Assembly: GCA_020852515.1 (NCBI GenBank)
Contig: JADZAS010000037.1
Span: forward strand, 62,001 to 126,000
Direction of reading: 5' to 3'
DNA length: 64,000 bases
Origin: Phycisphaerales bacterium
Lineage (GTDB): Bacteria > Planctomycetota > Phycisphaerae > Phycisphaerales > UBA5793
A program made the position numbers and the translations under genes. The notes beneath the pieces are model-generated. The model had not been told where the DNA came from. It ran no database searches and saw only the letters and a list, made by a program, of their open reading frames with translations. Shown here piece after piece: positions 47,350 to 63,533 of this stretch (the first letter of the stretch is position 1; each line of letters begins with the position of its first letter).

Positions 47350-49341
47350 ATGGCGAAGCGAAACCACCTGAACGGCGACTCCGCCCTGCTAATTCCCGAA
47401 CTGAAGACCCCCAAGGAAGCGTTCCGGGATCTGCGGAACTATCTCGCGGGGCAGCATGTTGGCGCCACGCGCGATGACTCGCTGTTGGAAGAACTGCTCA
47501 AATGTCTGTTCTGCAAGCTCTATGCGGAGATGGGGCGGACGGGCGAACTGCTGGCGGACCTCGAACCGTTCACGCTCGCGAAGCAAGTTCGCGGGATCTT
47601 CGCCAAGGTTCGGAAGGACTTCCCCGACCTGTATACTAAGGACACTGAGATCCTGCTGGCGCCTGATGCCATTGCTGAAGTGATGCGACAGTGCGCGTTC
47701 TCGTTGGTCGACGCGTCGACTGATCCGATCGGCGATGCTTTCGAGGTGTTCGTCGGTAGCGAATCGAGGGGTCGCGCCGGCCAGTTCTTCACTCCACGGC
47801 CCGTGACTGACCTGCTGGTGGAAGCGGTAGATCCCAAGCCAGGCGAAACCATCATCGATCCCGCATGCGGCGCCGGCGGGTTTCTCACTTCAGCGGCGCG
47901 CCATTTTCTCGACAAGGGCGTGAAGCCGAGCGAGCTGGGAGCCTTGGTCTCCAACCACTTGTACGGCATCGATAAGGACGAGTACCTCACGAAGTTGGCG
48001 AGGCTCCATGTCGCTCTGCTAACCACGGGACACCCGAGGATTCATTGCGCGGACAGCGTCTCGCTGCAGAATGGAAGCGCACATTTTCGGAGCGAACTTC
48101 CCGCTGAGGGATTCGATGTGCTGCTGACGAATCCGCCATTCGGAGTCCGCATCGTTGCCGCCCGACCTGACGTCCTTCGGACCTTCAGTTTGGCTCGCAA
48201 ATGGCGACGTGATCCGGAGACGAACCGGTGGGTACCGACGGGCGAGCTTCAGTCGCAGGTACCGCCGCAGGTGCTATTCTTGGAACGAAGCCTGTCACTG
48301 CTCAAGGAAGGCGGCCGGCTCGGCATGGTGTTGCCTGAGAGCATCCTGTCAAACAAGTCCTATCGCCATGTCATGGAGTTTCTGTCGGATGCCGCAGAGG
48401 TCGAAGCGGTGATTGGCATGCCGGACGCTCTGTTCAAGACGTCTGGCAAGGGGGGTACCCATACAAAAACGTGCTTGCTCGTCGCCACCAAGCGGACGGA
48501 GCGGGTGAAGCGGAAGCCTTCGATCTTCATGGCTGAGGCGAAGTGGTGTGGGCACGACTCGCGCGCCCGCGTCATTCCACATAATGATCTGCCGAAAATC
48601 GCGGCCAACCTGAAGGCGTACCGGGCGAAGAGGAATCTTCCTGCATCCACGCTCGGCTTCCTGGTTGACAGGGAGAACATCGTGGACAATGTGCTGTGTC
48701 CGCGGTACTACGACCCACAGATCGTCATCGAACTGGCTTCCTTAGAACGCACGCACGATCTAGTGCGATTTGGCGATCTCGTCAAACGCGGGGTACTGTC
48801 CATTGCCACCGGCGACGAACTTGGCAAACTCGCTTATGGCACGGGCGACATTCCGTTTATCCGCACATCGGATATCAGCAATTGGGAGATCAAGGCCGAT
48901 CCCAAGCACGGAGTGGATCGGAGGACGTTTGAGCGGATTAGGAGCAAACAGGATGTCCGGGCCTATGACCTACTTATGGTGAAGGATGGCACCTACCTGG
49001 TCGGCACCTGCGCCATCGTGACGCCGAATGATCGAGAGTTGATCTACCAGAGCCATATTTACAAGATCCGGGTGAACGATAATGAAGGCCTCGTCGACCC
49101 CTTTTTGTTGCTGGCCATCCTGAGCTCCCCCGTCGTTCAGCGCCAGATCCGTTCAAAGCAGTTCACCCAGGACATCATCGACAGTCTCGGTGACCGGATT
49201 CACGAGCTGGTTCTGCCGATACCCAAAGACGCGAAGACGCGGGAAAGCGTGACCGAGATGGTCAAGACCGCGTCACGAAAGCGTGTTGAAGCACGGGAAC
49301 TTGCCCGCGATGCTCGACTCGCGGTGGCCGGCGCCGGGTAA
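47350..49341 (+). CDS. N6-adenine DNA methyltransferase fused to a type I specificity domain
   Basis: A 663-aa protein from ATG 47350 (GGAGG upstream). Residues 1-110 are an HsdM-like helical N-terminus. The methylase core has motif I DPACGAGGF (about residue 170) and the catalytic motif NPPFG (about 260), i.e. the gamma-class N6-adenine type of HsdM. From about residue 465 there is a single target-recognition domain of the HsdS kind (LVRFGDLVKRGVLSIATGDE, IPFIRTSDISNWEIKAD, DLLMVKDGTYLVGTC, LLLAILSSPVVQRQI) ending in a helical spacer. Such M-S fusions act alone or as part of larger anti-phage systems, marking self DNA. No HsdR is present; the convergent HNH gene or the helicase operon are possible effectors. 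Confidence 0.88.
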   Translation: MAKRNHLNGDSALLIPELKTPKEAFRDLRNYLAGQHVGATRDDSLLEELLKCLFCKLYAEMGRTGELLADLEPFTLAKQVRGIFAKVRKDFPDLYTKDTEILLAPDAIAEVMRQCAFSLVDASTDPIGDAFEVFVGSESRGRAGQFFTPRPVTDLLVEAVDPKPGETIIDPACGAGGFLTSAARHFLDKGVKPSELGALVSNHLYGIDKDEYLTKLARLHVALLTTGHPRIHCADSVSLQNGSAHFRSELPAEGFDVLLTNPPFGVRIVAARPDVLRTFSLARKWRRDPETNRWVPTGELQSQVPPQVLFLERSLSLLKEGGRLGMVLPESILSNKSYRHVMEFLSDAAEVEAVIGMPDALFKTSGKGGTHTKTCLLVATKRTERVKRKPSIFMAEAKWCGHDSRARVIPHNDLPKIAANLKAYRAKRNLPASTLGFLVDRENIVDNVLCPRYYDPQIVIELASLERTHDLVRFGDLVKRGVLSIATGDELGKLAYGTGDIPFIRTSDISNWEIKADPKHGVDRRTFERIRSKQDVRAYDLLMVKDGTYLVGTCAIVTPNDRELIYQSHIYKIRVNDNEGLVDPFLLLAILSSPVVQRQIRSKQFTQDIIDSLGDRIHELVLPIPKDAKTRESVTEMVKTASRKRVEARELARDARLAVAGAG

Positions 49342-50421
49342 TCAGGCCCAGCCTCGTGCCTCGTAGTTGGTCGCAACCCGCCGGAGTAAATTGCGAACCT
49401 CGGCGAGCCCCAGGCTGCCTTGGATGCGATTCCCATCCGCTGACACCCAGCTAATGTTTTCCGGTGAGTGGCCAGACGCGGTCGCATTCGGATCGTCGAG
49501 CTTAAGGGGGTTCAGATGACCGACCTGAAAGTCGGACTTGCCATGAGACGGGTTCATAAGCTTGTCGTGGAACTCTGCAAACGACATGGGGTCGAGCGTG
49601 ATCGGACACCGGAACGGAGCGAGGTCCGGTGCCAGCACACCCTGAGCTTGTAGCATTTCGCGAGACCGTTGCGGGAACCCGTCAAACATGCACAACTGCT
49701 GGACCAACGTGTATTCTATGGCCATACACGTCTTTCTGGCAGCAAAGTGGACAGAACGAGGATGAACCTCCCACCTCTTTTCCCGATTCGTCTTGTGGTC
49801 ACCAGTCAACACACGATCCGTCAGGTAGGTCTTGACCTTGATCTTGTCCTCCAGTACCTTGCGGAAGAACGGAGCGTCCGGACTGGTCGCCGGGTCCGTC
49901 AGGTACTTCCTGAGCTTCATCGTGCGCAGCATCGTTGAGGTTGACACCCACTTCAGGTTGCCCCGGCGGTGAATGCGAGTACCGTCCGTTGGACGATCCT
50001 GATAGTCGAGCGGTACCTCGTAAGGCAGCAGTGAACGGTCAATGCAGAGCCGCATGAGCTCGCCGTTCTCGGGCAAATCGAGCCAGCCAGCCCCGAGATC
50101 CGCCAGCAGATCACGCGCGATGGTGACGCACTCCTCGAACGTGCATTGACGCGGATCACCAGTGAGCTGTTCGTACCAACGAGAACGGAACTTGGTGGTC
50201 TCAATCGCAGGGACCTTTACCAACTCGATCAGGAACACGTGGCGCAGGATCGCGCTGGCCAGCTTCGGATAGTGTCCCTGAAGCTTCTGCTTCAAGGGCG
50301 GCATAAGCGCTGCGATCTCGGGGTGTGCCTCGACGAGAGGCCACACCTTGCGGACCAGCGCGGGCATGCTGAATCTGTCCGCCTCCAGGATGGTTTCAAT
50401 CTCGTGCTGAATCACGGGCAT
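49342..50421 (-). CDS. HNH endonuclease-like protein
   Basis: A 359-aa protein (from ATG 50421; longer starts up to 50694 are possible). Most of the N-terminal part is helical and unrecognised (LVRKVWPLVEAHPEIAALMP, FEECVTIARDLLADLG). The C-terminal 80 residues form an HNH-type nuclease domain: FRCPITLDPMSFAEFHDKL, then DFQVGHLNPLKLDD, then SPENISWVSADGNRIQG, giving H, N and N-type residues. It is convergent with the methylase and ends one base after it, so the pair may be a restriction-modification-like unit. The site specificity would come from the methylase partner or from its own N-terminal part. No strong ribosome site decides the start. Confidence 0.72.
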   Translation of the reverse strand: MPVIQHEIETILEADRFSMPALVRKVWPLVEAHPEIAALMPPLKQKLQGHYPKLASAILRHVFLIELVKVPAIETTKFRSRWYEQLTGDPRQCTFEECVTIARDLLADLGAGWLDLPENGELMRLCIDRSLLPYEVPLDYQDRPTDGTRIHRRGNLKWVSTSTMLRTMKLRKYLTDPATSPDAPFFRKVLEDKIKVKTYLTDRVLTGDHKTNREKRWEVHPRSVHFAARKTCMAIEYTLVQQLCMFDGFPQRSREMLQAQGVLAPDLAPFRCPITLDPMSFAEFHDKLMNPSHGKSDFQVGHLNPLKLDDPNATASGHSPENISWVSADGNRIQGSLGLAEVRNLLRRVATNYEARGWA

Positions 50422-50931
50422 CCATCCCGGCGTGCGCGGTGAAAGCGATCGACAGTGACGGTCGGCAGCAGCGGGTGTCGTGACATCGCCTGAAGCATAT
50501 GTCATCCGAGCATGGCCGGTGGGTCGCCATATCGATGGGAGCCTGCCCGTGGCGTGCCATGACCGCCAGACGTCGCACGAACCGTTGTGAAATCGCCCGC
50601 AGCGGGTGAGACGACGGGTATGACCTCGCAGCGAGCGGAGACAAGGCCGCACATCGGCCCCTTCGCCAAGTCCTTGCAGAACAGTGGCCTGCAAACGCCA
50701 GCGCAGCCGAGGTCTCTAGGCTGCGTCTCCAGCAAACCACAGGGCCGGCTGCGTTTGCAACCGGCCCTTCAATAGAGGGTGGGATAGCCCGGATCGAACG
50801 GGGCTCCGTCGCTCACGCCCGAATTCGCCATGATTGGACGGCCGAGCGGGTCTCTCCAAGGCATCGCCGGCAAGTGTATGTGGCGATTTGGGCGTCATTT
50901 GACGGGGCACGTTGGAATTTCAGGCTCTGCG
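50422..50931. other. Noncoding spacer with a strong hairpin between the HNH gene and the helicase operon
   Basis: About 510 bases with no convincing gene. AGGGCCGG (50741-50748) pairs with CCGGCCCT (50761-50768), and three further inner pairs extend the stem. It may terminate leftward transcription from the helicase operon or the element next to it. Just to its right, AGCCC-GGATCGAACG-GGGCT (50786-50805) looks like an imperfect T-arm. The hairpin next to a T-arm-like sequence repeats the layout seen at 39.1 and 46.9 kb. Confidence 0.45.
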
Positions 50932-53900
50932 TTATCGCGCGCGGGACAGCGCCGCTCCGTGTCCGCCCGCGCCAGTCAGACCCCGCAACCAAGCCAGGGG
51001 CACGGACCGCTGCAGGTGGTCCCAATGGAACTGATTGGAGTAGTTGCGTAGACATCCATAGCAGCTTCCATTGGGATCGCACTGCGGATTCTCGCATCGT
51101 TCGAGCTGGCGCATGGCCTTGGTGATCACCTCGGACAATCGCTCCTGAATGCGCTCTGCGTACCCGGCTCCGCCCGGTATTCGATCGTAGAGGTACAACT
51201 CTCCTTCATTGCCGGACTCCGAACTCGCCCGGAAACCGCATACCAGGTCATTTCTGGAAATCTCCAGGAGGTCGCACGCCGCGTTGGCAATAGCCGCCGC
51301 GAGCGTGTGCCAGAAGGCCAGGTCCCCTACTTCAGAAATACTCCCGCCACTGAACTGCACCTGGAGCACCGATGTCGAGAAGTCGTGCGCCAGGGCCAAT
51401 GGACGGAACATGCCGGTGCATCTTCCACCCCAGGGAGACTCATGAGGACCCCGCCCGCCGACAGTCCGCTGCGCCCCACAGCGCAGACAGACATGGAAGC
51501 CTCGCTTCTGCTTTCCGAGGTTGGCACGGAACAAGCGAGACTCTGCTCCCAGAGCGGACCGCACACCTCGCAGGCCAGCGCATGGCACAAATGCGCTTTC
51601 GTCAGCCCCCTCGGCTAGGAAGACTTCCGTACTTGGTGGCGGCCGTCGCCGGAATAGATTTGGCGGCGCCGGCCTCTCGGAGGCGCTCGTCGTGAATCCC
51701 AGCGGCTGTATGAAGTGGAAAGCCTGAGGGCCCGCCGTGGCCTGCCCTTCTTGCGCGAGCGCAATCGAGATGCGATGACCGGGAAGAAACCTAACAGTCT
51801 CGAGCCGCGGCTCACGCCTTTCGAGATCAATTCCCACGCTCGTCAGCGAGAATCCATCTGCGATCACCTCCGCACCGGGCGCATACTCAGAAATGCCCTG
51901 ATCCCGCGACCGCTCCAATCGCATCTTGCTCCGGAAGTCACCGGCCCGTACGGTCAGTTGCACAACATCCTGTGGAAACGCATAGTTCGGCAGCCAATGC
52001 TCGCCAGCGAGAAAGTCGATCACGCTCCTATCGCACACGTCTGAGGCCAGTCGTTCCACGCGTTCCGAGGCGGACGCGAGAGCCGTCGCTCGCTTGCGAT
52101 CACCCTCCTTCCATGCCTTGTCGGCTTCTTCCCGGAGTTCATTCAGCTGAAGCTCGTAGGCACGCAGATGGGCTCGAAGCCCCTTATGCCACGCGGTGCG
52201 ATCCGCCGCATTCGAATCGCGAGCGAACAGGCTGTCGCTTGCTTGCGCGATCGCATCAGTCGCAGTGAGCCCCGGGATGTTGGGCATGAACGCCCCGACC
52301 TCGGCAGTGAGCTCGTGGGCGTGATCATGGCACCACGGAGAGAAGAGGTCCGCCGGACGAGCGGGACCATCGACGGTCTTTGGGAAGAAGCCCAGATGTT
52401 TGTCGGTGTCACCCGCTCGAATCTGCCCCAGCGACCGTGGCTGTTTGTCGAACTTCTGCATTTCTCCAGATTCCAGCAACCACAGCAGAAACCGTCCAAG
52501 AAGCAGGCTGTTCACGTGCCGCTGGGTCAACACGCGATTCTGCGTATGGACGGTCGGCACCGGTACCCGACCGGCGACCATATCCAGTGGCCGAAAGAAG
52601 TGGTGGAGATCGTGCGGCACAGACCGAGCAAATGTCACCGCATGCGCCAGTGACTGGTTCCGCCTTCCGGCTCGCCCGGCGCGCTGCAGATAGTTCGACG
52701 TCGATGGCGGCACGTTGCGAAGCAGCACTGAGTCCAGGTCGCCAATGTCCACACCCATTTCAAAGGTCGTCGAACAGCTCAGCACATTGGACGCACCAGT
52801 CTTGAACTCGTCTTGGTATTCTCGACCATGCTCCAGGCTGAGTTGCGCCGTATGTTCGCGCACACGCAAGGGCAGCGGTTCGGCCTTGTACCGGCGGATG
52901 AGATGACGAGTGGGCGCTCCTTCCTGCGCTGTGGCGACCTCCACAAGTCGACCCTTGCACTCAAAGACCTCGCATTGCCCACCCATGGCGTGCACGGTGC
53001 GAGCATCGCAAGAGTGACAGCGGTACCACGGTCCCCTGCCGCTTGCCAGAATCGCGTCGGCGGGAACCTGAAATAGGCCGGTGCCGAGCCCATGTAGTAT
53101 CGCGCCTCCCTCGGCTGTCAGCACGTCCCACAACGCTTCGAACGTCTCGTCCATCAACGCTTCGGACACCGGTCCATACAGGTTCAACGCCTTCTCAAGC
53201 ACATCTCGCAGGTGGCTCCGCTTTATGGATGTCCCTCGATGACGGGAGGGGGCCCGGTAGGGGTTCCATCGCAAGGGCCGCATGCCATCGCGGCTCAATC
53301 CCGCGGGATCTTTGTGAACCGCGACCTGTAGAGGTCCTTTGCGTCCCGGCAGCAGGTCGCGTGCCTGAATCTCGCTCGGCGAGAAGGTAATCGCGTACCG
53401 GCGCATCAGAAACGCGCACACGCGCTGGATCGCATCGCTGCCGGCGCATTCATCGCCGAACAGTGCTGGCACGCCGCTTCGCAGGGCGTCAAGATCGGCC
53501 GACCGAAGCTCCATGTGCGGCGCGGCGAGCATGAGGCGAGGCAAGCGCGTCCGCTGAAGTGGCGTCGACGTCAAGTGCTGATACAGGACGAGGGCGCACT
53601 CACGCATGAGTTTGCGCTCATCTGCGCCACGTAGCGTTGCGGATTCTGCCACCTCGTAGCAGTCGTAGCCATCGTCATCGGTCGTGCGCAAGATCACCCA
53701 GCGTCTCGCCTTGGCGTGTCTGGCCGCAGCCTCCGCCAACTCCGGAATGCTGCGGACCTCGCCCTTGGCGTCCGCGTGGGAGATCGCCGTCAGCACTGGC
53801 TCCACGAATGACGCCTCCGCAACGGTTCGACTCAGATAAGGGGCGAAGAAGGCTGCGCGCTGGCGGCTATCCGAGAACGCCAGCAAGCGCCGACCACCAG

Positions 53901-55818
53901 CGGGCTTCGACCCATTCTGGACCGGCATCTGCCTCAGCAACTCTTCTGCGAGTACAGCCGTCGGAGCGTCATCGCCGGTAATGAATGATCGAGCAGCCGA
54001 GGGGAATGCGCCCCGCCCCGCCCCGCAGCAGGGGCACTTCTGAATGTCACCCTGCTCATTGGCACTCGGGACCACGTACATCTGAACGAGCGTGTCGGCC
54101 GGTGAGGTTGGGCGGCTACGAAGCAGACCCCGCGACTCGGTATCCAGCCACAGAGAAGGGACATCATCGCCGACCTCTTCCGAGGCCTCCGCCTGGTCAT
54201 CGGGTTCCCGCTCGACCATGAACTCTGGGCTCACCCAGGTCAGCGCGAGGCGGTTCTCACCATCGTTCATCGTTGGGTACGCCCAGCGATCTCCATCCTC
54301 ACGGACCACCACGAACGGGAACCCGCAGGAATGACACACCGAGAGTGGTACGGGATGTCGCCCCCTTTCATCGGCAGTGCGCCGGTCTTCGAGCACGAGT
54401 TGTTCGAGCACTCCATCTGGTCCGCCGGTCCCTTGTTCGCCCGATAGGTAGACAGACGCGCCCGCTACGCCACGGAAGAACTGGTGCACCCGTGCCGATA
54501 GCAGCGGCACGCCGTCCACTTCCGTCGTGCGGGCGTTCGTGGCCAGAACGACCAGCCGTTCCAGGCACTGAGGGGATACGACCAGCCCCTCACCCGACAG
54601 TGCGCCATGCAATTCTGAGATCGATCTCGGACTCGCGATGATCAGCTCACGCGCCCGTCGAACGACCGTGAGGGGATTCAGAGTACGAAAGAGCGTTGAC
54701 CGCGGTCCTTCGCCGACTTGGACCTGAAACCCGCACTGTTTGAGCATTCCTCGCATCGCAGCGGTGGCGCTCAGCGCCGTGGCGATAGCGTCATCAGCCG
54801 CCACAGATTCGAGATTCGTGTGGACCGACGCTGGAAGAGCCACGGAGGATGCCACTTCGAAATCGTCCTGCCTCACGCCACGAATGACATCGCCAGCGTC
54901 GAATTCAGATCCCGTCAGCCGGGTCGCAAACTCAGCGATCCTCTGGGAGGCGTCTGGACTGTCATCTCCTAGGGTGGCGCTGGTGAGAATGAACTTGAGG
55001 GAACTGCCAAACCGTCGCTTCAGCTTGCGCATCAGCAGGCTAATATCGATGCCCTGAGCTCCTGTGTAGCTGTGAGCCTCATCCAGGACCACGTGTCGCA
55101 CTTTGCCGTGACGAAAAATTCTCTGGTCGTCCGGACGCAGCAACAGGTACTCAAGCATCGCAAAGTTGGTCAGGAGCAGTTGAGGAGGTTCGCTCCGAAT
55201 GTCCTCGCGGGACCGTCTCTCGCTCGGGCACACCGGTGGCCCGTCTCTGGCTTCTACCTCGTCTGGAGTCTGGCTCGTGTAGCGGCCAAACGTCACGCCC
55301 GAGTCCGCGATGAGGCTCTGCATCCGATCCAGCTGATCATTCGCGAGTGCGTTCATCGGGTACACAAGAATCGCCCGTACTCCGGAGGGTTCGCCCGATC
55401 GGATTGCCTCGTCAAGTAGCGGTAGAAGGAAGCACTCGGTCTTTCCGCTACCGGTTCCCGTGGCAACAACGACGTTGCGTCCGCTCTGCATGGCTTTGAT
55501 TGCGGCCAACTGGTGCCTGTATAGAGGCCTGTCCGCGTGAAAGACCTGCGGGTTGAGCCGTGCCATGCGGCTGGAGAGTCTGGGCGCGTCTGACCGATCG
55601 AAGAGCTGACGCGGCGTTTCCGCCGTTCGATAGCTCGGAATGGCCGAAATCAGCGGCTCTCGGACAAACGCGTCCGGCACCGCGAGCTGCTCGCGAAATT
55701 GCGCACGCAGGCGCCCTTGAGTGTGATGGATCGGCAGCGCCTCAACCATGTAGTCAAGGTACTGATCCCTCATGGCGCCGGCCACGCGGAACGGATTTAC
55801 GACGCTCACAGTTGACAT
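50932..55818 (-). CDS. Large DEAH-box helicase with zinc elements and C-terminal DUF1998-like domain
   Basis: A 1628-aa superfamily-2 helicase. Walker A is ATGTGSGKTE (about residue 120), the DEAH box lies in VVLDEAHSYTGAQGID (about 245), motif III is TSATLG (about 281). A long insert (about 300-1000) carries CxxC pairs (VCHSCGFPF, KCPCCGAG). The C-terminal motor half has FEMGVDIGDLDSVLLRNV and QRAGRAGRR (about 1025-1060). The end has the DUF1998 signature LYDRIPGGAGYAE (about 1546) and a cysteine cluster CENPQC-CYGCLRNYSNQFH. This architecture is like DruE of Druantia, the DrmA/DrmB pair of DISARM and DpdJ. It is the last gene of a tightly packed operon with an Hsp70-type ATPase. Probably ATP-driven recognition or unwinding of invading DNA. 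Confidence 0.9.
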   Translation of the reverse strand: MSTVSVVNPFRVAGAMRDQYLDYMVEALPIHHTQGRLRAQFREQLAVPDAFVREPLISAIPSYRTAETPRQLFDRSDAPRLSSRMARLNPQVFHADRPLYRHQLAAIKAMQSGRNVVVATGTGSGKTECFLLPLLDEAIRSGEPSGVRAILVYPMNALANDQLDRMQSLIADSGVTFGRYTSQTPDEVEARDGPPVCPSERRSREDIRSEPPQLLLTNFAMLEYLLLRPDDQRIFRHGKVRHVVLDEAHSYTGAQGIDISLLMRKLKRRFGSSLKFILTSATLGDDSPDASQRIAEFATRLTGSEFDAGDVIRGVRQDDFEVASSVALPASVHTNLESVAADDAIATALSATAAMRGMLKQCGFQVQVGEGPRSTLFRTLNPLTVVRRARELIIASPRSISELHGALSGEGLVVSPQCLERLVVLATNARTTEVDGVPLLSARVHQFFRGVAGASVYLSGEQGTGGPDGVLEQLVLEDRRTADERGRHPVPLSVCHSCGFPFVVVREDGDRWAYPTMNDGENRLALTWVSPEFMVEREPDDQAEASEEVGDDVPSLWLDTESRGLLRSRPTSPADTLVQMYVVPSANEQGDIQKCPCCGAGRGAFPSAARSFITGDDAPTAVLAEELLRQMPVQNGSKPAGGRRLLAFSDSRQRAAFFAPYLSRTVAEASFVEPVLTAISHADAKGEVRSIPELAEAAARHAKARRWVILRTTDDDGYDCYEVAESATLRGADERKLMRECALVLYQHLTSTPLQRTRLPRLMLAAPHMELRSADLDALRSGVPALFGDECAGSDAIQRVCAFLMRRYAITFSPSEIQARDLLPGRKGPLQVAVHKDPAGLSRDGMRPLRWNPYRAPSRHRGTSIKRSHLRDVLEKALNLYGPVSEALMDETFEALWDVLTAEGGAILHGLGTGLFQVPADAILASGRGPWYRCHSCDARTVHAMGGQCEVFECKGRLVEVATAQEGAPTRHLIRRYKAEPLPLRVREHTAQLSLEHGREYQDEFKTGASNVLSCSTTFEMGVDIGDLDSVLLRNVPPSTSNYLQRAGRAGRRNQSLAHAVTFARSVPHDLHHFFRPLDMVAGRVPVPTVHTQNRVLTQRHVNSLLLGRFLLWLLESGEMQKFDKQPRSLGQIRAGDTDKHLGFFPKTVDGPARPADLFSPWCHDHAHELTAEVGAFMPNIPGLTATDAIAQASDSLFARDSNAADRTAWHKGLRAHLRAYELQLNELREEADKAWKEGDRKRATALASASERVERLASDVCDRSVIDFLAGEHWLPNYAFPQDVVQLTVRAGDFRSKMRLERSRDQGISEYAPGAEVIADGFSLTSVGIDLERREPRLETVRFLPGHRISIALAQEGQATAGPQAFHFIQPLGFTTSASERPAPPNLFRRRPPPSTEVFLAEGADESAFVPCAGLRGVRSALGAESRLFRANLGKQKRGFHVCLRCGAQRTVGGRGPHESPWGGRCTGMFRPLALAHDFSTSVLQVQFSGGSISEVGDLAFWHTLAAAIANAACDLLEISRNDLVCGFRASSESGNEGELYLYDRIPGGAGYAERIQERLSEVITKAMRQLERCENPQCDPNGSCYGCLRNYSNQFHWDHLQRSVPLAWLRGLTGAGGHGAALSRAR

Positions 55819-55822
55819 GGGA

Positions 55823-56167
55823 CTACGCTCCGCTGCCGCATCGGCACTCGCTGCCGAACAACCACTTCCAGTTGACGCTTCCGTCGGCCACCCTCACCGG
55901 ACCGAATACCACCCGCTGGCACGTCCGGCACCGCAGGGTTTCGTGACGCTGCGCGTATTGCTCGGGACGAAGCACAGTCAGAATGTGCTGCTCCTCGACC
56001 GCCGTCGGCGGTGACATGGACCTTCCGAGGATGTCGGTGACCAGACGTCGTATCGCAGGTCCGCCTCGGACGTGACGGACAAACTCCGTGTCGCCAACCC
56101 GCCCAAGGTGAGCGTTCCGCGGCACAACATTGGACACCGGCATGACATTGGATCGGGGTGTGGTCAT
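55823..56167 (-). CDS. Small zinc-ribbon protein of the helicase operon
   Basis: A 114-aa protein. The N-terminal 75 residues are unrecognised. The C-terminus has a zinc-ribbon pattern: LRCRTCQRVVFGPVRVA, then FGSECRCGSG, i.e. CxxC and CxC. It starts six bases after the Hsp70-type gene and ends four bases before the helicase gene. Possibly an adaptor that binds DNA or links the ATPase to the helicase. Confidence 0.72.
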   Translation of the reverse strand: MTTPRSNVMPVSNVVPRNAHLGRVGDTEFVRHVRGGPAIRRLVTDILGRSMSPPTAVEEQHILTVLRPEQYAQRHETLRCRTCQRVVFGPVRVADGSVNWKWLFGSECRCGSGA

Positions 56168-56173
56168 CGCTGT

Positions 56174-57601
56174 TCAGGCTCCAATGTCGTATGTGAAGCG
56201 CAGTTTCTCGTACTCGAACTCCCGGACATCCGCTTCATTGCCTGATTGGCTTTGCGCCCGCGCATGAAAGGTGAGGTCCCGCGTGAGCATGGTCGAGAGG
56301 TCCAGCCTTTCACGGTCGAATCCTTGCATGGGGACAGAGACGTATCCGATGTTCTCAGTGTCGGTCGCACCGTGCGTTGAGCTCTCAAGATCCCGGCTTC
56401 GGCAGAACACGAGCTCCGCACTACGTGCGTCCTCAACTATGCCGAGTACGTGATGTTCGGGCAGCCCACCAAAGGGATCTCCTGGATCGACGAGCGGGAG
56501 CGCCGAATTGTCGGCGAGCCGCAGTTCCAGCCGATCCAGCACCTTGAACCGCCCGGGGTTGTTGGCCAGAGCGGATGCGCCTTGTGCGACCGCCCACTCC
56601 GGTTCGCGTCCGTGGAACACCCTGCCGGGAAACAGATCCTCGAGCCGATCACGAACAGACACCAGTTGACTGCTGCCACCGACAAGCACGATCTGGTCAA
56701 TCACCCGCGTTCCAACGTTCGCCGAGGTCAGCGCCCGCCGCAGCACCTCAACTGCCGATTCCACTATGGGGTGCACAAGTTCTGCAAGCAGCGGACGCTC
56801 GATCCGTACTGACGGCGCGCCCTCGCCAAGATACCCCGGCACGGTGATCGTGGACTCGATCTCGCGAGACAGCGTCTGCTTGGCCGCTTCACAGCGGAAT
56901 CGCAGCCGGTCCTTGTCACGCGGGCTGACATGCTTGAATGCTGGTGCGTCCGTCATCTCCAGGGTCAACTGCCTGTGAGCCCATTCCGCGATGTGGTTGT
57001 CAATGGCATCGCCAGCGATAGCCATGCCATCAACCGCGAGTTCCCGTATCTGTCCTCCCCCAACGGAGAGCACGCTCACGTCGAGAGTGCCGCCGCCCCA
57101 ATCGAAGACGGCAAGCGTCGAACAGTTCCCCAAATCCTTGCGGTACCTCAAGAATGCGGCGGTGGGCTCCGAGACAAAGTCCGTGATAACCACGCCCGCA
57201 CCGAGTGCCGCGTCCCGGAGAGTCTGCCGTTTGGCGCGCCGAAAGCCCACCGGGATTGCAATGACCGCCTCTCTCATCTCGCGTCCGGTCTGGCGTTGGA
57301 CATGGTTGACTAGATGCCGGAAGAACTCCTCAGCAATGTCGAAAGGTGTCCAGGAGCGGTTGGGGGTGTTCCACCGATGGTCGGTGCCGAGCTGCGTCTT
57401 GACTGACAACACCACCTCGTAGTTGGCGTCGCGGAGCTCTTCTTGCCTCTGTTTGACGACATCCCCGCACACGACCTCGCCGGAGGCTCGGTTGATGGCG
57501 ATAGCCGTAGGGATCGGTCCGTTCGACGGACCGCGCAGCAGCGTGGTTTCGTCGAAGACGACCGCGGAGTTCGTGGTGCCGAAGTCGATGCCAAATGCCA
57601 T
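56174..57601 (-). CDS. Hsp70-type (DnaK-like) ATPase with shortened C-terminus
   Basis: A 475-aa protein with a complete Hsp70 nucleotide-binding domain: phosphate-1 loop GIDFGTTNSAVVF at the N-terminus, VIAIPVGFRRAKRQ, TDFVSEPTAAFLRY, phosphate-2 loop AVFDWGGGTLDVSVL (around 170) and adenosine loop IVLVGGSSQLVSVRDRL (around 325). After about residue 355 only some 120 residues remain (about 240 in DnaK), with beta-like content (DRLELRLADNSALPLVDPG), so the usual substrate-binding lid is missing. It lies between the coiled-coil and Zn-ribbon genes, 3-6 bases from each. It probably assembles or regulates the helicase complex rather than folding general clients. Confidence 0.88.
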   Translation of the reverse strand: MAFGIDFGTTNSAVVFDETTLLRGPSNGPIPTAIAINRASGEVVCGDVVKQRQEELRDANYEVVLSVKTQLGTDHRWNTPNRSWTPFDIAEEFFRHLVNHVQRQTGREMREAVIAIPVGFRRAKRQTLRDAALGAGVVITDFVSEPTAAFLRYRKDLGNCSTLAVFDWGGGTLDVSVLSVGGGQIRELAVDGMAIAGDAIDNHIAEWAHRQLTLEMTDAPAFKHVSPRDKDRLRFRCEAAKQTLSREIESTITVPGYLGEGAPSVRIERPLLAELVHPIVESAVEVLRRALTSANVGTRVIDQIVLVGGSSQLVSVRDRLEDLFPGRVFHGREPEWAVAQGASALANNPGRFKVLDRLELRLADNSALPLVDPGDPFGGLPEHHVLGIVEDARSAELVFCRSRDLESSTHGATDTENIGYVSVPMQGFDRERLDLSTMLTRDLTFHARAQSQSGNEADVREFEYEKLRFTYDIGA

Positions 57602-57604
57602 GTG

Positions 57605-59032
57605 CTATCCATTCGAGCGAGGGGTCGGAGGACGGAGCACCCGCATGAGCTCCTCGTGACACGACCTCAGGGCGGCCCGCTGCCTTTCCGATGGCTCCAA
57701 TTGCAGAAGTTCCTTCATGTTCTCGATGTGAATACTCGCTGCCCTAGTCAGTTCCTGCGCCATCGCGGCCCGTTCGGTGTCACGCGTGTATTCAACATCC
57801 TTTCGCTTGTCCTCACGGACCCGCTCCAGATCCCGTTCGAGTTGCGCATTCCGACTTTTCACTTCCGACGTGGTCGCCTCCAGGCCGGCGGTGAGCTCTT
57901 TCAGTTTGCACAGTTCTGACTCAGCTGCTTCTGTTGAACGAAGCGCGCGATTACGCTGGTCGGTTATCTCGGCGAGCGCACGCTCCTGTTGCTCGAAGCG
58001 TTCCTTCGTGATCCCGAGCGACGTTGCGAGTTCATCCCTCTCCTGCGTCCGCCGCTTCAGACTGTCAGCGAGATCCGTCGCTCTGCGACGCAGGTTCAAG
58101 AGTTCCGAGCCGTCTTCGCTGCTCCACCGCTTCACCTCCGCCTGTATGACCCGCAGCGCGTCGGCGATGAGCACCTTTGGATGCGACGGTGGACTGCCCG
58201 GACTGCCCTGCGCAAGGTTCGATCTCGACTCGGCCTTGGTGTTCGCCACTCCGCTTGGAAGCACGCGGGGCACGGTTGTGGCGTTCGGAGCCACGCCCTT
58301 TTCGAGGCCGGCGCTCGAGGCTACGGACGCAGGCACCGCTTCCGCGGCTGGTCCGAGAGATCGCAGGCGACTGAGTGCTGATTCCACTGCATGGCGACTC
58401 TCGCTGGACGACTCAGTGACAAGCTGAGCATCCAGCCAGTTGGTCACGGCGTCGCGGAGCGCCGGCGGCTGACCGCTCAGCGCTTCGTTCAGAAGCGAGT
58501 CAAACTCCGGCCGCGCGTCCCTGGCTATATGGGTATAGCGGAGCGCAAACAGGGGGGCCGTGCTGACCGGCTGCAGCCATCGTTCAAGTAAAGTTCTCCG
58601 GAGCGTTGCACGTAGGTCTGTGCGGGGCGCAGTGCCTCCACCTCTGCCAGGCCGCGCTCCGCCGCCGGCCCTCCTGGCGATCACTCTCATGGCCTCACCG
58701 AGCAACCCGCTGGCACCCACAGGGTCTGATGTAGCGACCGCCGCGCCCAGGTACAAGCAGGCCCGCGCTCGGCTCTCCGGCTTGCGTTCGTGCCACTTCC
58801 ATCTCAGCGCGACGACCTGAAGATCCTTCGGCAGGTCCGCCCAGCGCGCCGCGAGCAGTTCCGCGGCACGTTCTGCGTGCTCGTTCTTGTGTTTCAAGGC
58901 GGTTTCAAAGTCCCTTGCGTCACCAGATCCCAACTCTCCGCGCGCAAGGATCGCTTGGAGCGGAGACTTCGAATCTGATGAGCCAGACTTTTCTGACGGG
59001 GGGCCGTCTGTATGTGTTTCGCTCATTCCCAT
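57605..59032 (-). CDS. Coiled-coil protein of the helicase operon
   Basis: A 475-aa protein. Residues 1-200 are a helical, HEAT- or TPR-like region (FETALKHKNEHAERAAELLA, ACLYLGAAVATSDPVGASGL), 200-280 a Ser/Pro-rich linker, and 280-450 a long coiled coil (ADSLKRRTQERDELATSLGI, LEATTSEVKSRNAQLERDLE). Polar C-terminus. No enzyme motif. In this operon it may be the structural or scaffold partner of the Hsp70-type ATPase. ATG at 59032 or 59026; both overlap the end of the preceding 1071-aa gene. Confidence 0.78.
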   Translation of the reverse strand: MGMSETHTDGPPSEKSGSSDSKSPLQAILARGELGSGDARDFETALKHKNEHAERAAELLAARWADLPKDLQVVALRWKWHERKPESRARACLYLGAAVATSDPVGASGLLGEAMRVIARRAGGGARPGRGGGTAPRTDLRATLRRTLLERWLQPVSTAPLFALRYTHIARDARPEFDSLLNEALSGQPPALRDAVTNWLDAQLVTESSSESRHAVESALSRLRSLGPAAEAVPASVASSAGLEKGVAPNATTVPRVLPSGVANTKAESRSNLAQGSPGSPPSHPKVLIADALRVIQAEVKRWSSEDGSELLNLRRRATDLADSLKRRTQERDELATSLGITKERFEQQERALAEITDQRNRALRSTEAAESELCKLKELTAGLEATTSEVKSRNAQLERDLERVREDKRKDVEYTRDTERAAMAQELTRAASIHIENMKELLQLEPSERQRAALRSCHEELMRVLRPPTPRSNG

Positions 59033-62000
59033 TTGACCAGCTTCCCGAGCTCGAGCTCACTGACGATCTTGTCACGGTCCTGCATGGTGCCCGGTATCTC
59101 GTGCATTCTGGCTCGCGCACGCAAAAGCATATTGGACGCCTCACCATTCGTCCCGAGTGCGATCGCTCGCCAGAGCAACCACAACGTGAGCCACGATCCG
59201 GCGTGCATTCCGACGTTTGGGTCACACCGTGCCAGCGCGGCGAGGGCAGTGTCATCGTCGAGTGGGCTGACGTCAGCTAGGGCCCAGGAACACTCAATGA
59301 CCGGGCTGGCAACCGCGCCGCCTCGCAGGTTGGCCAGCACGTAGGATAGACAAGGCGGAATAGCGCTGTGCGGATCTAGGCGGGATGTCTCATTCAGAAA
59401 AGGCGTGATGTTCCCGCTGCGGAGCATCGTCAACAAGTAGAACGCTCTAGCCACCTCGCACCAGAGGTCCGTGGCCGCCATCCAAGCTGCTCTGAGCTGG
59501 TGCAGCGCGGATTGGACTGCGACCTGCCGCACATCGAGTCCTCCCGTGGAAAACGCGATCCGATAGTTTCTGAGTCCGTTCAGCAGCCCATCCGGGACGT
59601 CCGACGGTGGCGGCGTTCGTTCCAGTACGGCTCTTCGAAGTTGTCGCATCGTCGACGTTGAGTCGGCGGCGGTCATCAACCGCTGCTCGGCCTCGGACAG
59701 CAAGACGCGCCACGTCGTAGGCCACACCTCGTGCCGCACGCCGGTTAGCGCGAGCACCGCTTCGGCGTCGAGTCGCCGCCATTCGTCAACGAGTGCGGAG
59801 GCGTCGGAGGGTCGGAGACGCTCCCGAGAGCGCCGGACGAGCGTGGCCAGTTGTCGAGCGTTACCATCAAGATGCCGTTCAATGCCATACACAATGCGAG
59901 CCCCTCTCAACCAGGGGTCGATGATGTTCTGCAGGGAGTCTAAGGGTGCAGCGAGTCCTGAATCGGAAGGCTGGTGTCCGGCCTGGAGACCTCGGAGTCC
60001 GTTCAGCGCGGCGACCAGCTCGGGCGGAGTGCCTGTGGGCGCTTCGAGGGTTGGACGGGGCCGCCAAAGCGCCGCGGTATTTACGAGCACGACTTCGAGA
60101 GGCAACTGTCGACCGTATTGGGTCAGCTCGAACAGGCCTACCTCAGCCTGAGCCCCTCGGACGGCATCACGTATCTGTGCCCAGCGAAGCGGATACCTCC
60201 CGATCTCAGACTTCTCGGCCGCAAAGTCAGAAACCTCGAAAAGCGGGTATGTTCCGTTCGCGGTGCGAAGCGTGAGCTTCCAGCCCTTGCGGCGCGCCGC
60301 AACGATCGTGAAATCGCCGAGCCGCCCACTGGATGAAGCCCTATCCCGCGTATCGATGGCCGACATATCCAGGAGCACCGGGGTTCCCGGCTCGCCCGGC
60401 ACGACCATGCGAGCCCGCGGCAGGCACGACGTCACCCGCAGTTCGTCATGACCGATCCTCAGAACTAAGGATGCCTCATCTGAAGGTGGCGCAACTTCAA
60501 TTACGCGAGGCAACGACTGCCCCCTTTGGTCAAGAACATCGAGCACCGCAGACGTCCTGATGGTGACGGTGCCGATATCGTTGGCGCCCATGACGTTCGG
60601 TGACTTTAGAAGCTGGACGTCGGGCCACACGGCGTACACAAGCGTGCTCTCGGACTTGAGGGAGCCCGAACGCCGTCCTCTCCCCTCGATCCGCACGACT
60701 CCGACGTGCGGCCGCTGTGGTAACAGGAGACGGTGTGAACCCGCACTGGGATGTAGCTGCTGGGTTACGTCATCGACGTGTCCCTCCACCTCCCGCGTAA
60801 CGCGAAAGTGTGCGAAGCGCTCGGCCGTCCAGCCCGCCACACGGATGTGCGCGGCATCGGGCGAGAGGACTACGTCGACGTCTGGAGTGCAGCCGTCCAG
60901 TGGGTGTGCGCTCTCGACCTCAAACCGTGGAACTGACGCAGCCGATACCACCGAGACACCCGGCAGGGCGTCGCATCCTTCAACCAATGCGACGTGTAGC
61001 AGCGCAAAGTCTCCAACGTCAGCCCCATCAAACTCAAGTAGGCCCAGATCAGCTCGAATCTCAAGCCCTGTTGCCCGCAACGCCGTTGCCGCCAGGCAAT
61101 CGCTGACCGCAATGAGGTATTCACCCGCCGGCAGCGATGTCGTCTGGCCATGCGAGCCCGCAATTGCACCTCTCAGGTCGAACACTGCCCACGCGCTGTT
61201 GCGTCTCGGCCAGGCTTGGATCGACCACTCGCCCTCGGTTTCCCGTTGCTCAACCGTGCCCGTGAACATGCTCTCGTAGCGCACCGACTTCCCGAGGTAC
61301 ATGACTGACTTGATGCTCCCCGCGTGGCTACTGCTCTGGTTCCAGGTGTACTTGCAAGTTCTGCTTGCTGCGAGGCCCGGGAATCTGACCGCCATCCGCC
61401 CCTGCTCTTCGAGGACGATGAGAACTGGCCAGAGCCCTCTCGGAATACCGTGCTTGGGCTTGCGACCCTCCCCATCGAGCAACGGGTTCAGTTCCTGGAC
61501 GAGTCTGTGCAGAAAGCCGGTATGGAACCCGGGCTCCTGCGCCAGGCGACCGGCAACGTCTCGCCGAGCCGGCCAACCAGAACGAGCCAGCACGGCACCG
61601 GCTGCGCGAACGAGCTCCTCGCCCGCCTCAGAAGACAGAAATTCAGAGGCGAAACGAGTGCCTTGGAATGCGGTGTTCACCGCTCGCTGAAGCGTCTCAC
61701 TGGGAAGGCTGGCCACGGCCTCCAGCCCATGATCACACGCGATGTCGAAGACCAATCTGGCAAACCGCGGAATCAAGAGCCTTGGCACGCCCGTGTGAAC
61801 TCTGACAGGTCCGACGTACCGCCACCGGAACTCCGGCGCGAATCCCGCCCATTGTTCGATCGCTCCACGCACCGCAGGCCCAACGTGTTCGGCCCACTCA
61901 CGTTTACATGCGTCCTCGTCAGCAATGCCGAGCTGTCGCATGAACGGGACCACAAGGCCTCCAGAGTCTTCGTGTTCAAAGCACACCTCGACTGCAGCGC

Positions 62001-62238
62001 GGGCCAACGCCAGCTGCGCGTCTCGCCCGATCCCCCATCCACGTTGGCGACGAAGAGTCTTCAAGAGCGAGGCGAGATCCACTCCGTCCGGAAGCGGCAC
62101 CTCACAGAGATACTCCACCTGACCCTGCTGGGCGCGCAGTGCGTGGGCGACCGCGCCAATGGGGTCAACGCCGTTGGCTTGATGAGTGTCGGCGCTAGAC
62201 AAAGAGCGCCTCCGCGATGACGAAGCAGCCACATCCAT
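59023..62238 (-). CDS. 1071-aa protein of unknown fold, core of the helicase operon
   Basis: No signal peptide, membrane helix or recognisable catalytic motif. The N-terminal third (about 1-300) is helical with GPVRVHTGVPRLLIPRFARL and looks like a conserved recognition domain. Residues 300-700 are beta-rich, with several repeated Ig-like or jelly-roll-like modules (GEYLIAVSDCLAATALRATG, RVAGWTAERFAHFRVTREVE, GTVTIRTSAVLDVLDQRG). The C-terminal third is helical (LRRAVLERTPPPSDVPDGLL). It might be a distant relative of the large unnamed proteins that accompany DUF1998 helicases in predicted defence arrays, but I cannot place it. It overlaps both neighbours, so its product must be made in step with theirs. 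Confidence 0.8.
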   Translation of the reverse strand: MDVAASSSRRRSLSSADTHQANGVDPIGAVAHALRAQQGQVEYLCEVPLPDGVDLASLLKTLRRQRGWGIGRDAQLALARAAVEVCFEHEDSGGLVVPFMRQLGIADEDACKREWAEHVGPAVRGAIEQWAGFAPEFRWRYVGPVRVHTGVPRLLIPRFARLVFDIACDHGLEAVASLPSETLQRAVNTAFQGTRFASEFLSSEAGEELVRAAGAVLARSGWPARRDVAGRLAQEPGFHTGFLHRLVQELNPLLDGEGRKPKHGIPRGLWPVLIVLEEQGRMAVRFPGLAASRTCKYTWNQSSSHAGSIKSVMYLGKSVRYESMFTGTVEQRETEGEWSIQAWPRRNSAWAVFDLRGAIAGSHGQTTSLPAGEYLIAVSDCLAATALRATGLEIRADLGLLEFDGADVGDFALLHVALVEGCDALPGVSVVSAASVPRFEVESAHPLDGCTPDVDVVLSPDAAHIRVAGWTAERFAHFRVTREVEGHVDDVTQQLHPSAGSHRLLLPQRPHVGVVRIEGRGRRSGSLKSESTLVYAVWPDVQLLKSPNVMGANDIGTVTIRTSAVLDVLDQRGQSLPRVIEVAPPSDEASLVLRIGHDELRVTSCLPRARMVVPGEPGTPVLLDMSAIDTRDRASSSGRLGDFTIVAARRKGWKLTLRTANGTYPLFEVSDFAAEKSEIGRYPLRWAQIRDAVRGAQAEVGLFELTQYGRQLPLEVVLVNTAALWRPRPTLEAPTGTPPELVAALNGLRGLQAGHQPSDSGLAAPLDSLQNIIDPWLRGARIVYGIERHLDGNARQLATLVRRSRERLRPSDASALVDEWRRLDAEAVLALTGVRHEVWPTTWRVLLSEAEQRLMTAADSTSTMRQLRRAVLERTPPPSDVPDGLLNGLRNYRIAFSTGGLDVRQVAVQSALHQLRAAWMAATDLWCEVARAFYLLTMLRSGNITPFLNETSRLDPHSAIPPCLSYVLANLRGGAVASPVIECSWALADVSPLDDDTALAALARCDPNVGMHAGSWLTLWLLWRAIALGTNGEASNMLLRARARMHEIPGTMQDRDKIVSELELGKLVKWE

Positions 62239-62383
62239 CTACTTCAACGGTCCAACCGGACGCCTCGTCTATCCTGGCATCGATACCATGCACGCACGAT
62301 CGCTCCAGCCGGGCGGGCGATGCGGCATCTCTTTGGGACTTGCCCATCGGGAACAGGTCGTGCTGGAATCGCTGCCGCGTCAT
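62195..62383 (-). CDS. 62-aa protein upstream of the 1071-aa gene
   Basis: ATG 62383 has AGAGG ten bases upstream. The product has a basic start (TRQRFQHDLF) and an amphipathic C-terminal half (GWTVEVDGCGCFVIAEALFV). It overlaps the 1071-aa gene by 44 bases. It is too short to classify; a leader or small regulator is possible. It could be a spurious frame, but the ribosome site and the place in the operon argue for a real gene. Confidence 0.5.
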   Translation of the reverse strand: MTRQRFQHDLFPMGKSQRDAASPARLERSCVHGIDARIDEASGWTVEVDGCGCFVIAEALFV

Positions 62384-62444
62384 GGAAGACCGCCTCTAAT
62401 CACGTCATCAATGGTGGGGTGGCTGGGCGTTTCTGTGACTCTCC

Positions 62445-62635
62445 TTAGATGATCCATCTGTCAGTGACGATGCGGCTAAACCGCCAGTGTTTCCCGACCT
62501 TCTGACCCGGGGCACCTTCCCGCTCTGTGCCAGCTTGTAGAGAGAGGATTTGGACACCTGGAGGTCGAGGTCCGAGATGGTCTTCACCTCGGGCGGCGAC
62601 GAAGCGCGGGAGGATGCACGGCTGGCGCGGGCCAT
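62445..62635 (-). pseudogene. Excisionase/MerR-type HTH gene broken by a one-base shift
   Basis: From ATG 62635 the frame reads ISDLDLQVSKSSLYKLAQSG, the first half of an excisionase-type HTH_17 domain. It then loses the pattern after GKVP. The expected second half, GQKVGKHWRFSRIVTDRWII and a stop at 62445, is present in another frame. One extra base in the G run at 62509-62512 (plus strand) would restore the whole 62-aa protein. A -10-like TACACT lies eight bases before the ATG. Either a real frameshift or a homopolymer error. The intact protein would be the likely regulator of the operon behind it. Confidence 0.72.
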
Positions 62636-63113
62636 AGGGACGCAGTGTAGCCGTTCCTACCCGTTGGTGGAAGCATCGGCCCTGGCCCAGTCGCTGACTA
62701 CAGCCCGGGCGGGCAGGCCATTGGCCCACTCGATGTTGATCGCAAGTTCCGGGCCTCAGGCCATCGCGTGCTTGCGGCAGTTCCGGCACCGGCGGCGCCG
62801 GTCTTCCCTCGCATCTGCCAAATCCAACGCAGTCGCGTCGTCGAAGCGGTGTGGGGCGATGGGTGGGCCGACGTGCTCGGCACTGGTCAACGCAGCGCTG
62901 CCCTCCGCCCCGTCGCAGTTCGTGTCGCAGGCCATCGTCAGTGTCGCCGTGCCGCCCGTCGCGGCTGGATGCATCGCGGTGCCGGAGCCGCAGAAGCATG
63001 TCGCAATTGAGTTTGGGCTCGCTTCGCCGGTACGAACCTGGCGAGAAGCACCGGCAGCATGGAGTTAGCATTGTGCGGTGCCATACCGTCGTCCGCAGAA
63101 CGGAGGAGACAAG
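62636..63113. other. Noncoding region between the operon promoter and the HARE-HTH-like gene
   Basis: About 480 bases. A leftward frame encodes a weakly protein-like stretch: DDATALDLADAREDRRRRCR up to NCRKHAMA, then a TGA at about 62756, then in the same frame GPELAINIEWANGLPARAVV to a stop at about 62659. It may be a small gene with a nonsense mutation or chance. No other feature is seen apart from the promoters of both directions. Confidence 0.35.
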
Positions 63114-63533
63114 ATGCCCAGGAAACCCGACCTCAGCCGCGTTCCGACCGTTGAACTGATCCGCGAACTCGAACGGAGGCAGGCAATGGCAGGTGAGTTC
63201 GAATCCAGGCGAGAGGCGTTGCAGAAGGAGCTGGCCGAGATCGAGGCCGAACTTTCGGCGCTGGAGACTAGAGCAAGCAACGCCTTTGGCCGGCGCCACG
63301 TCAATCGCTCCGCCGCGGCCCGCACGCGATCGGCCAATCTGCAGCCGCTCAGTGTTGCGCTCCAGAAGCTGCTCACGGGCGAGACCATGAGCGTTTCCGA
63401 GGCGGCCGAGGCCGTGAAGAAGGCTGGGTACAAGTCGAACGCCGCAGACTTCAAGAGCGTCGTCAACCTGACGCTGCTCAAGCGCAAGGACCTGTTCAAG
63501 CGGGTCGGGCGCGGGCAGTACACGGCGAGGTAG
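63114..63533 (+). CDS. Coiled-coil protein with C-terminal HARE-HTH-like domain (second paralogue)
   Basis: A 139-aa protein from ATG 63114, which follows CGGAGGAG at good spacing; the earlier in-frame ATG at 63078 lacks one. It has the same plan as the protein at 17851-18297: coiled coil (TVELIRELERRQAMAGEFES, LQKELAEIEAELSAL), basic linker (RRHVNRSAAARTR) and a C-terminal domain MSVSEAAEAVKKAGYKSNA plus VNLTLLKRKDLFKRVGRGQY. The last 40 residues are nearly identical between the two. It sits at the far end of the accessory island, so one of the copies may have been carried in. Confidence 0.8.
   Translation: MPRKPDLSRVPTVELIRELERRQAMAGEFESRREALQKELAEIEAELSALETRASNAFGRRHVNRSAAARTRSANLQPLSVALQKLLTGETMSVSEAAEAVKKAGYKSNAADFKSVVNLTLLKRKDLFKRVGRGQYTAR

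Follow-up and report, generated by a model that had tools for sequence, protein, structure and literature searches.

An operon that combines a giant protein, a coiled-coil protein, an Hsp70-type ATPase and a DUF1998-type helicase raises the question of whether it represents an undescribed defence system, as had been proposed in an earlier note on this DNA, or a form of a named one. The operon considered here is located in a 64-kb stretch of planctomycete DNA, analysed at its whole length and referred to as the window. The analysis divided that proposal in two, since the genes at both ends of the operon correspond to the pair of Druantia type III, a named system, while the composition including an Hsp70 is new. 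The novelty is the Hsp70 cassette placed between DruH and DruE, in a system that as a whole is known. Judging from sequence comparisons, the operon probably encodes an anti-phage system of the Druantia III type, of the nuclease-less "III-B" kind, with the built-in Hsp70 cassette as a proposed checkpoint.

Organization of the Operon

All the leftward open reading frames listed in the earlier note were found at their positions on the minus strand. Upstream of the operon, an HTH regulator, of the excisionase/AlpA type by eye, is represented by its first half at 62408–62635, and its second half lies in another frame; the broken reading frame that had been described was thus observed, with the halves in two frames at ~62.4–62.64 kb, and it may correspond either to a true frameshift or to an assembly error. 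It is followed by a 62-aa ORF (62195–62383) overlapping the start of the next gene, for which a coding-like composition was the only sign and no Pfam family was found, so that it would be a weak candidate for a leader gene. The 1071-aa protein, a divergent DruH-like protein and presumed infection sensor, is encoded at 59023–62238, followed by a 475-aa coiled-coil protein with a helical N-terminal part (57605–59032), a 475-aa Hsp70-type ATPase (56174–57601; Pfam HSP70, E 2.9e-41), a small Cys-rich protein of 114 aa (55823–56167), supported as a gene by its coding composition, and a 1628-aa DruE-like SF2 helicase of the YprA family (50932–55818). The computed junctions between these five genes were of −10, +3, +6 and +4 bases, in this order, in agreement with the close coupling noted before, and indicate that the genes from the DruH-like one to the helicase form a single operon, which with the 62-aa ORF spans 50932–62383. 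Third codon positions of the operon genes were GC-rich, as in genuine genes.

The Helicase Is a DruE without a Recognised Terminal Nuclease

The earlier reading of the last gene as a DEAH helicase with a C-terminal DUF1998-like domain was borne out by Pfam, which recognised the DEAD, Helicase_C and MZB (= DUF1998) domains. Because MZB occupies residues 1506–1590, leaving only 38 aa to the C-terminus, the helicase has no recognisable C-terminal nuclease. The best PADLOC models were DruE1 (E 6.4e-183, 609 bits) and DruE3 (E 2.6e-177, 590 bits), with DpdJ, DrmA and BrxH scoring far below, and two parts of the protein, 704 and 741 columns long, could be aligned to E. coli DruE with 25–27% identity. 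In a tree that included the ARMADA-like helicase of a sister genome, the window protein branched deeply and sided with the DruEs, its exact place being unsure owing to several long branches.

Bell et al. (2025; PMC12458937) describe, in the main text, a "Druantia III-like" group, or "yellow branch", whose DruE most often lacks a nuclease, and a figure legend of that paper names this nuclease-poor branch type III-B. The window DruE resembles that branch, as far as the main text and legend characterise it, and differs from type III-A, since it has no PLD-like C-terminal nuclease, an absence that is usual in III-B. It also lacks the PLD-like tail carried by the DruEs of two Gemmatales loci discussed below (L050:9995–15838 and L149:4088–9859). 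In these, the PLD-like C-terminal domain was matched by Pfam MIT_C, with E 3e-9 in L149 and 0.006 in L050.

The 1071-aa Protein as a Divergent DruH

The 1071-aa protein had been described as having no known fold, a description that profile comparison did not sustain: by this approach, it is recognisable as a divergent DruH, a member of the sensor family of Druantia III. A genome-wide scan based on a helicase alignment recovered 80 DruE-like loci; no fewer than 50 of them encode a large protein of one family directly upstream of DruE. Against a profile of 37 members of this family, the window protein scored 10.0 bits, the best of 200 shuffles reaching 2.2. Against a 54-member profile of the DruH family, which also takes in more distant members, it scored 19.5 bits with an E-value of 2e-6, computed in a small set (best of 200 shuffles, 2.5). 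The alignment of the window protein to the DruH family by hhalign gave a probability of 93 and a score of 64.6, in comparison with 15.7 for the reversed sequence and at most 21.4 for 30 shuffles.

The second step connected this family with annotated DruHs, a set of nine consisting of the E. coli protein WP_001513100.1, named in PMC13192584, and eight plasmid-borne proteins, one of them partial. Compared with the 37-member family, the set gave a probability of 96.3, E 1.5e-9 and a score of 95.5 over 688 columns, whereas the controls reached 22.4 (reversed) and at most 15 (column shuffles). No direct similarity between the window protein and E. coli DruH was detectable, and the assignment therefore follows from the two controlled profile steps, from the window protein to the III-B family and from this family to annotated DruH. 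PADLOC DruH3 models recognised E. coli DruH with 1828 bits and matched neither the window protein, whose sequence, unlike that of E. coli Druantia III, is too diverged for current DruH models, nor the III-B relatives tested (L154, L025, L058, L050, L102). Since these relatives were missed despite their profile homology, surveys probably undercount Druantia III.

The strongest common motif was YVtPIlaHaGIP for the family as a whole; it reads RYVGPVRVHTGVP in the window protein (approximately residues 139–151) and FLGTLFSEGGLP in E. coli DruH. Substitution of DruH residues L129, T131/L132 and G136/G137 abolished Druantia III defence (PMC13192584), and we infer that the shared motif spans these residues after a 3-residue offset attributable to start-codon choice.

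An AlphaFold2 model of the Microbispora relative (pLDDT 84), whose alignment did not contain E. coli DruH, displayed a helical part at 12–258, β-sandwiches at 265–786 and a second helical part at 797–1104. This predicted layout is like that of the published DruH, in which three Ig-like domains lie at 257–748 (PMC13192584). The model of the window protein, of low confidence (pLDDT 55) and leaning on the family alignment, was helical to residue 255, β at 272–732 and helical from 739, so that it would share with E. coli DruH a helical N-terminal part, a β-sandwich middle and a helical C-terminal part. Of the two approaches that the earlier note had suggested for this protein, profile searches recognised the DruH family, while structure prediction gave a poor model. 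A search of PDB structures with the models returned generic Ig, FnIII and macroglobulin-type chains with Z below 8, DruH not being among the matches, which indicates no specific fold relative. In a search of 397 genomes of the class, two loci (L006 and L007) gave weak matches to the 1071-aa protein in unrelated neighbourhoods, and these were rejected as chance.

The Hsp70 and Its Partner Proteins

The window Hsp70 comprises a full nucleotide-binding domain and a short β substrate-binding part, and has no helical lid, which fits its earlier description as a truncated Hsp70-type ATPase. All cassette Hsp70s aligned with DnaK read GIDFGTTN and DWGGG where DnaK has GIDLGTTN and DLGGG, and each of them retains the catalytic Lys as well as the EP(T/I)AA and GG motifs. 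The β substrate-binding part was kept in the cassette Hsp70s, the lid being missing in the window and Gemmatales proteins. In the Hsp70 tree, the window protein grouped with those of L050 and L149 (bootstrap/SH-aLRT 97/98), and DnaKs were separate from all cassette Hsp70s, although the branches are long and call for caution.

The heptad pattern placed the coiled coil of the neighbouring protein at approximately residues 305–408 of its 475 aa, as expected from the note. The window and Gemmatales coiled-coil proteins have a common layout and no sequence similarity; homology of the window protein to its Gemmatales or actinomycete counterparts was not supported, as the scores fell within those of heptad-preserving shuffles or gave no signal, and a GrpE-like identity was discarded for lack of Pfam support. 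The 114-aa protein, which had been presented as a Zn-ribbon protein, does contain one CxxC and one CxC at its C-terminus, a possible Zn site, but no Pfam family matched it. The small gene found in the same slot of the Gemmatales operons is unrelated to it in sequence.

Recurrence of the Cassette and Number of Origins

An Hsp70 gene was found beside DruE in 3 of the 80 DruE-like loci. In a Gemmataceae MAG (L050), a DruH-like protein of 1065 aa is followed by a 611-aa coiled-coil protein, a 514-aa Hsp70, a 304-aa protein and DruE, and in a second genome of Gemmatales (L149), which came from a further search, the corresponding proteins have 979, 414, 518, 179 and 1923 aa; the gene order in both, DruH – coiled coil – Hsp70 – small gene – DruE, is identical to that of the window. 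In Microbispora (L058), the order is DruH-like, a 556-aa protein, a 272-aa coiled-coil protein, an Hsp70 with a fused RNase of the NYN/Zc3h12a type (Pfam E 1.4e-8) and DruE. Microbispora-type Hsp70s occurred in 18 of 299 genomes of Microbispora's order, and the arrangement of L058 was shared by three further actinomycete loci (L129, L131 and L135). The neighbourhood survey that the earlier note had called for found its gene order conserved in the Gemmatales, and a variant order in actinomycetes, with an extra 556-aa gene and no small gene. With DruH and DruE directly next to each other in 50 or more of the 80 sampled relatives, the intervening cassette is exceptional yet conserved.

In actinomycetes, the cassette was also found beside a DruH–DruE pair, in divergent orientation in L141 and downstream in L033, and at least eight loci (L130, L132, L133, L134, L137–L140) had no DruE-like gene within ~10 kb of it. 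Among these stand-alone cassettes, one (L133) has a Type I R subunit in its vicinity and another (L139) has GmrSD. The occurrence inside, beside and without the pair indicates that the cassette is modular and was repeatedly placed in the DruH–DruE slot, and the loci without DruE suggest that the actinomycete 556-aa/coiled-coil/Hsp70-NYN cassette is possibly an independent, undescribed defence unit.

These same loci outside the pair or without DruE would be accounted for if the operon contained two independent systems, an ordinary Druantia III-B pair and, under common regulation but without mechanistic coupling to it, an Hsp70/coiled-coil system that stands alone. This explanation was judged unlikely, although it is the strongest of the alternatives, because the cassette sits exactly between DruH and DruE in seven loci of two phyla (the window, L050, L149, L058, L129, L131 and L135), whereas a cassette that was a mere neighbour should lie outside the pair no less frequently than within it.

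A single origin does not explain the distribution. The Hsp70 state required three changes on the helicase trees, and a single clade of all Hsp70-bearing helicases was rejected (AU p 1.7e-82), while one clade of the window and Gemmatales helicases was not (AU p 0.15). Rejection of the single origin implies at least two recruitments, the simplest reading of the trees being that one may have taken place in planctomycetes and one in actinomycetes. This recurrence suggests that chaperone machinery was recruited into Druantia more than once.

Gemmatales-type Hsp70 was found in 0 of 324 genomes of a phylum sample, in a search that had no positive control. At the limits used, scans of viral contigs with the helicase, the 1071-aa protein and E. 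coli DruH, each singly, gave no relatives, and neither did scans of plasmids with the helicase, the 1071-aa protein and the Microbispora Hsp70, also singly.

Two further features of the Microbispora locus were observed. The C-terminal region of its 556-aa protein (L058:5433–7103; family A2) contains NPYxxLG...INxAxRRL, which is J-domain-like by eye; the HPD motif is absent and Pfam gave no match. If that region were a J-domain, an Hsp40-like protein would pair with the Hsp70. Moreover, at L058:14678–24596, DruE is directly followed by NERD-kinase and DUF7008 methylase genes resembling PglW and PglX of BREX-2.

Proposed Mechanism and Relation to Described Systems

In the type III system of E. 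coli, DruH, for which a dimer-dependent nuclease activity has been reported, is a likely sensor of late phage proteins, and DruE loads on 3′ single-stranded DNA (PMC13192584). By extension from that study, the DruH-like protein of the window would sense a late phage protein via its β-sandwich domains, and the DruE-like helicase would load on single-stranded intermediates of phage replication or recombination. The Hsp70, with its β substrate-binding part and no lid, would form an ATP-driven checkpoint together with the coiled-coil protein; it might bind either the sensor or segments that phage proteins expose during assembly, and would license or remodel the DruH–DruE complex, controlling the assembly of DruH with DruE. 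Since no nuclease was recognised in the window DruE, damage to DNA is proposed to come from DruH or from helicase action alone. This provides a testable model for how Druantia couples the sensing of phage proteins to the attack on phage DNA, and the presence of a dedicated Hsp70 between sensor and helicase, at a corresponding position in two distant phyla, points towards immunity under chaperone control.

A broader proposal is advanced only tentatively. An Hsp70 with its own coiled-coil partner, brought in between DruH and DruE on at least two occasions, might define a chaperone-gated branch of Druantia. It might serve as an ATP-dependent switch, either recognising proteins of phage assembly or remodelling the sensor–helicase complex, with an NYN RNase as an added output in actinomycetes. 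If this holds, the cassette of actinomycetes would by itself constitute another undescribed defence unit.

The operon shares with Druantia type III of E. coli (PMC13192584) a DruE-like helicase, a DruH-like protein and the order DruH then DruE. These end genes make the operon a variant of Druantia III; unlike the two-gene system, it has three further genes between DruH and DruE, one encoding the Hsp70 ATPase, hence "variant" rather than plain type III. It also departs from III-B as described in the main text of PMC12458937 by the Hsp70 cassette between the genes. The earlier statement that DISARM, Druantia and Dpd, as described, have no such partners agreed with the literature, in which Hsp70 is absent from the main texts of the YprA helicase paper (PMC12458937) and the Druantia III paper (PMC13192584). 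A full-text search found Hsp70 and Druantia co-mentioned only in CoCoNuT papers, as separate components, and the operon was considered a new variant on these grounds. None of the partner proteins matched the PADLOC models for the Druantia I and II partners (DruA–DruD; DruM, DruF, DruG).

Other conflict systems provide precedents for an Hsp70. In the Hsp70-bearing CoCoNuT systems (Type III-A CnuC/CnuD and Hsp70-McrB fusions; PMC11090510), an Hsp70-like domain and coiled-coil proteins also occur in a defence operon. However, the CoCoNuT Hsp70 units accompany McrB-type GTPases and McrC, as fusions or as separate partners, and have degenerate motifs, whereas the window motifs are intact, and Pfam and PADLOC detected no McrB-like GTPase (CnuB) or McrC domain (CnuC) in any operon protein. 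Kaur et al. (2020; PMC7159879) reported GAP1-N2 GTPase conflict systems with HSP70/GrpE, likewise a recruitment of Hsp70 to bacterial conflict; unlike the window operon, those systems are GTPase-centred and have no DruE or DruH.

Genomic Site and Neighbouring Genes

No homologue of the 1071-aa protein was found in four other genomes of the genus. DNA identity to two sister genomes, G004 (98%) and G001, ends at one point, ~47,040. In G004, the sequence beyond it encodes a Type I R-M system together with an SngC-type helicase of Shango, and in G001 an ARMADA-like helicase accompanied by methylase and DpdE/DrmD-like genes. In the window, this point is followed by an N6-methylase–specificity fusion as first gene (47059–49341, plus strand; Pfam N6_Mtase, PADLOC MTase and Specificity_I), an HNH gene (49342–50694, minus strand) and the Druantia operon. 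The position at ~47,040 (L166 and L167 in the same-genus genomes) is a defence hotspot of the genus, and its coincidence with other defence genes in two genomes upheld the placement of the operon in a variable island with defence-type neighbours, of which the left edge is the one located. The tRNA-like fragments said to flank it did not hold up, as ARAGORN found 0 tRNA genes and Rfam 0 matches at gathering score in the 64-kb window.

This site bears on the idea that the block is a housekeeping or DNA-repair operon, composed of an MrfA/YprA-type repair helicase and a chaperone. Repair members do exist among YprA-family helicases, and DnaK-like proteins are mostly housekeeping; nevertheless, the helicase scores as DruE, a DruH-family protein is present, and the operon is absent from other genomes of the genus and belongs to a block that starts where sisters hold Type I R-M or ARMADA-like genes, so that this idea is very improbable. 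Least probable of all is membership in another YprA-based system (ARMADA, DISARM, Dpd, BRIGADE or TALON), which the common helicase superfamily and the ARMADA-like set at the same site in a sister genome could suggest, since DruE models are best by hundreds of bits and the tree separates the window helicase from the ARMADA-like one. The operon resembles ARMADA (PMC12458937) in its YprA-family helicase and its location in a defence island, but the BrxHII-like and PglX-like genes that define ARMADA, a helicase and a methylase, are absent from it, the nearby methylase being the fusion on the other strand. DISARM has a split DrmA/DrmB helicase, whereas that of the window is single-chain, and no 7-deazapurine genes of Dpd were found among the operon proteins. 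A Druantia III-type system with an Hsp70 cassette is the preferred reading.

The methylase–specificity fusion and the HNH gene were present next to the operon, as the earlier note had it, whereas a role of the HNH protein as its functional partner was unsupported. A relative of this protein, on an Acinetobacter plasmid, is encoded directly upstream of an N-6 DNA methylase, and the HNH protein is therefore most likely the (restriction) partner of the methylase and a neighbour outside the system; for the same reason, it is less likely to be the missing nuclease of the operon. Elsewhere in the window, a 2563-aa protein with RHS repeat and DUF6531 is encoded at 19972–27663 on the minus strand, and a 151-aa coiled/winged-helix-like protein at 63078–63533 on the plus strand; most genomes of the genus each contain several related copies of the latter.
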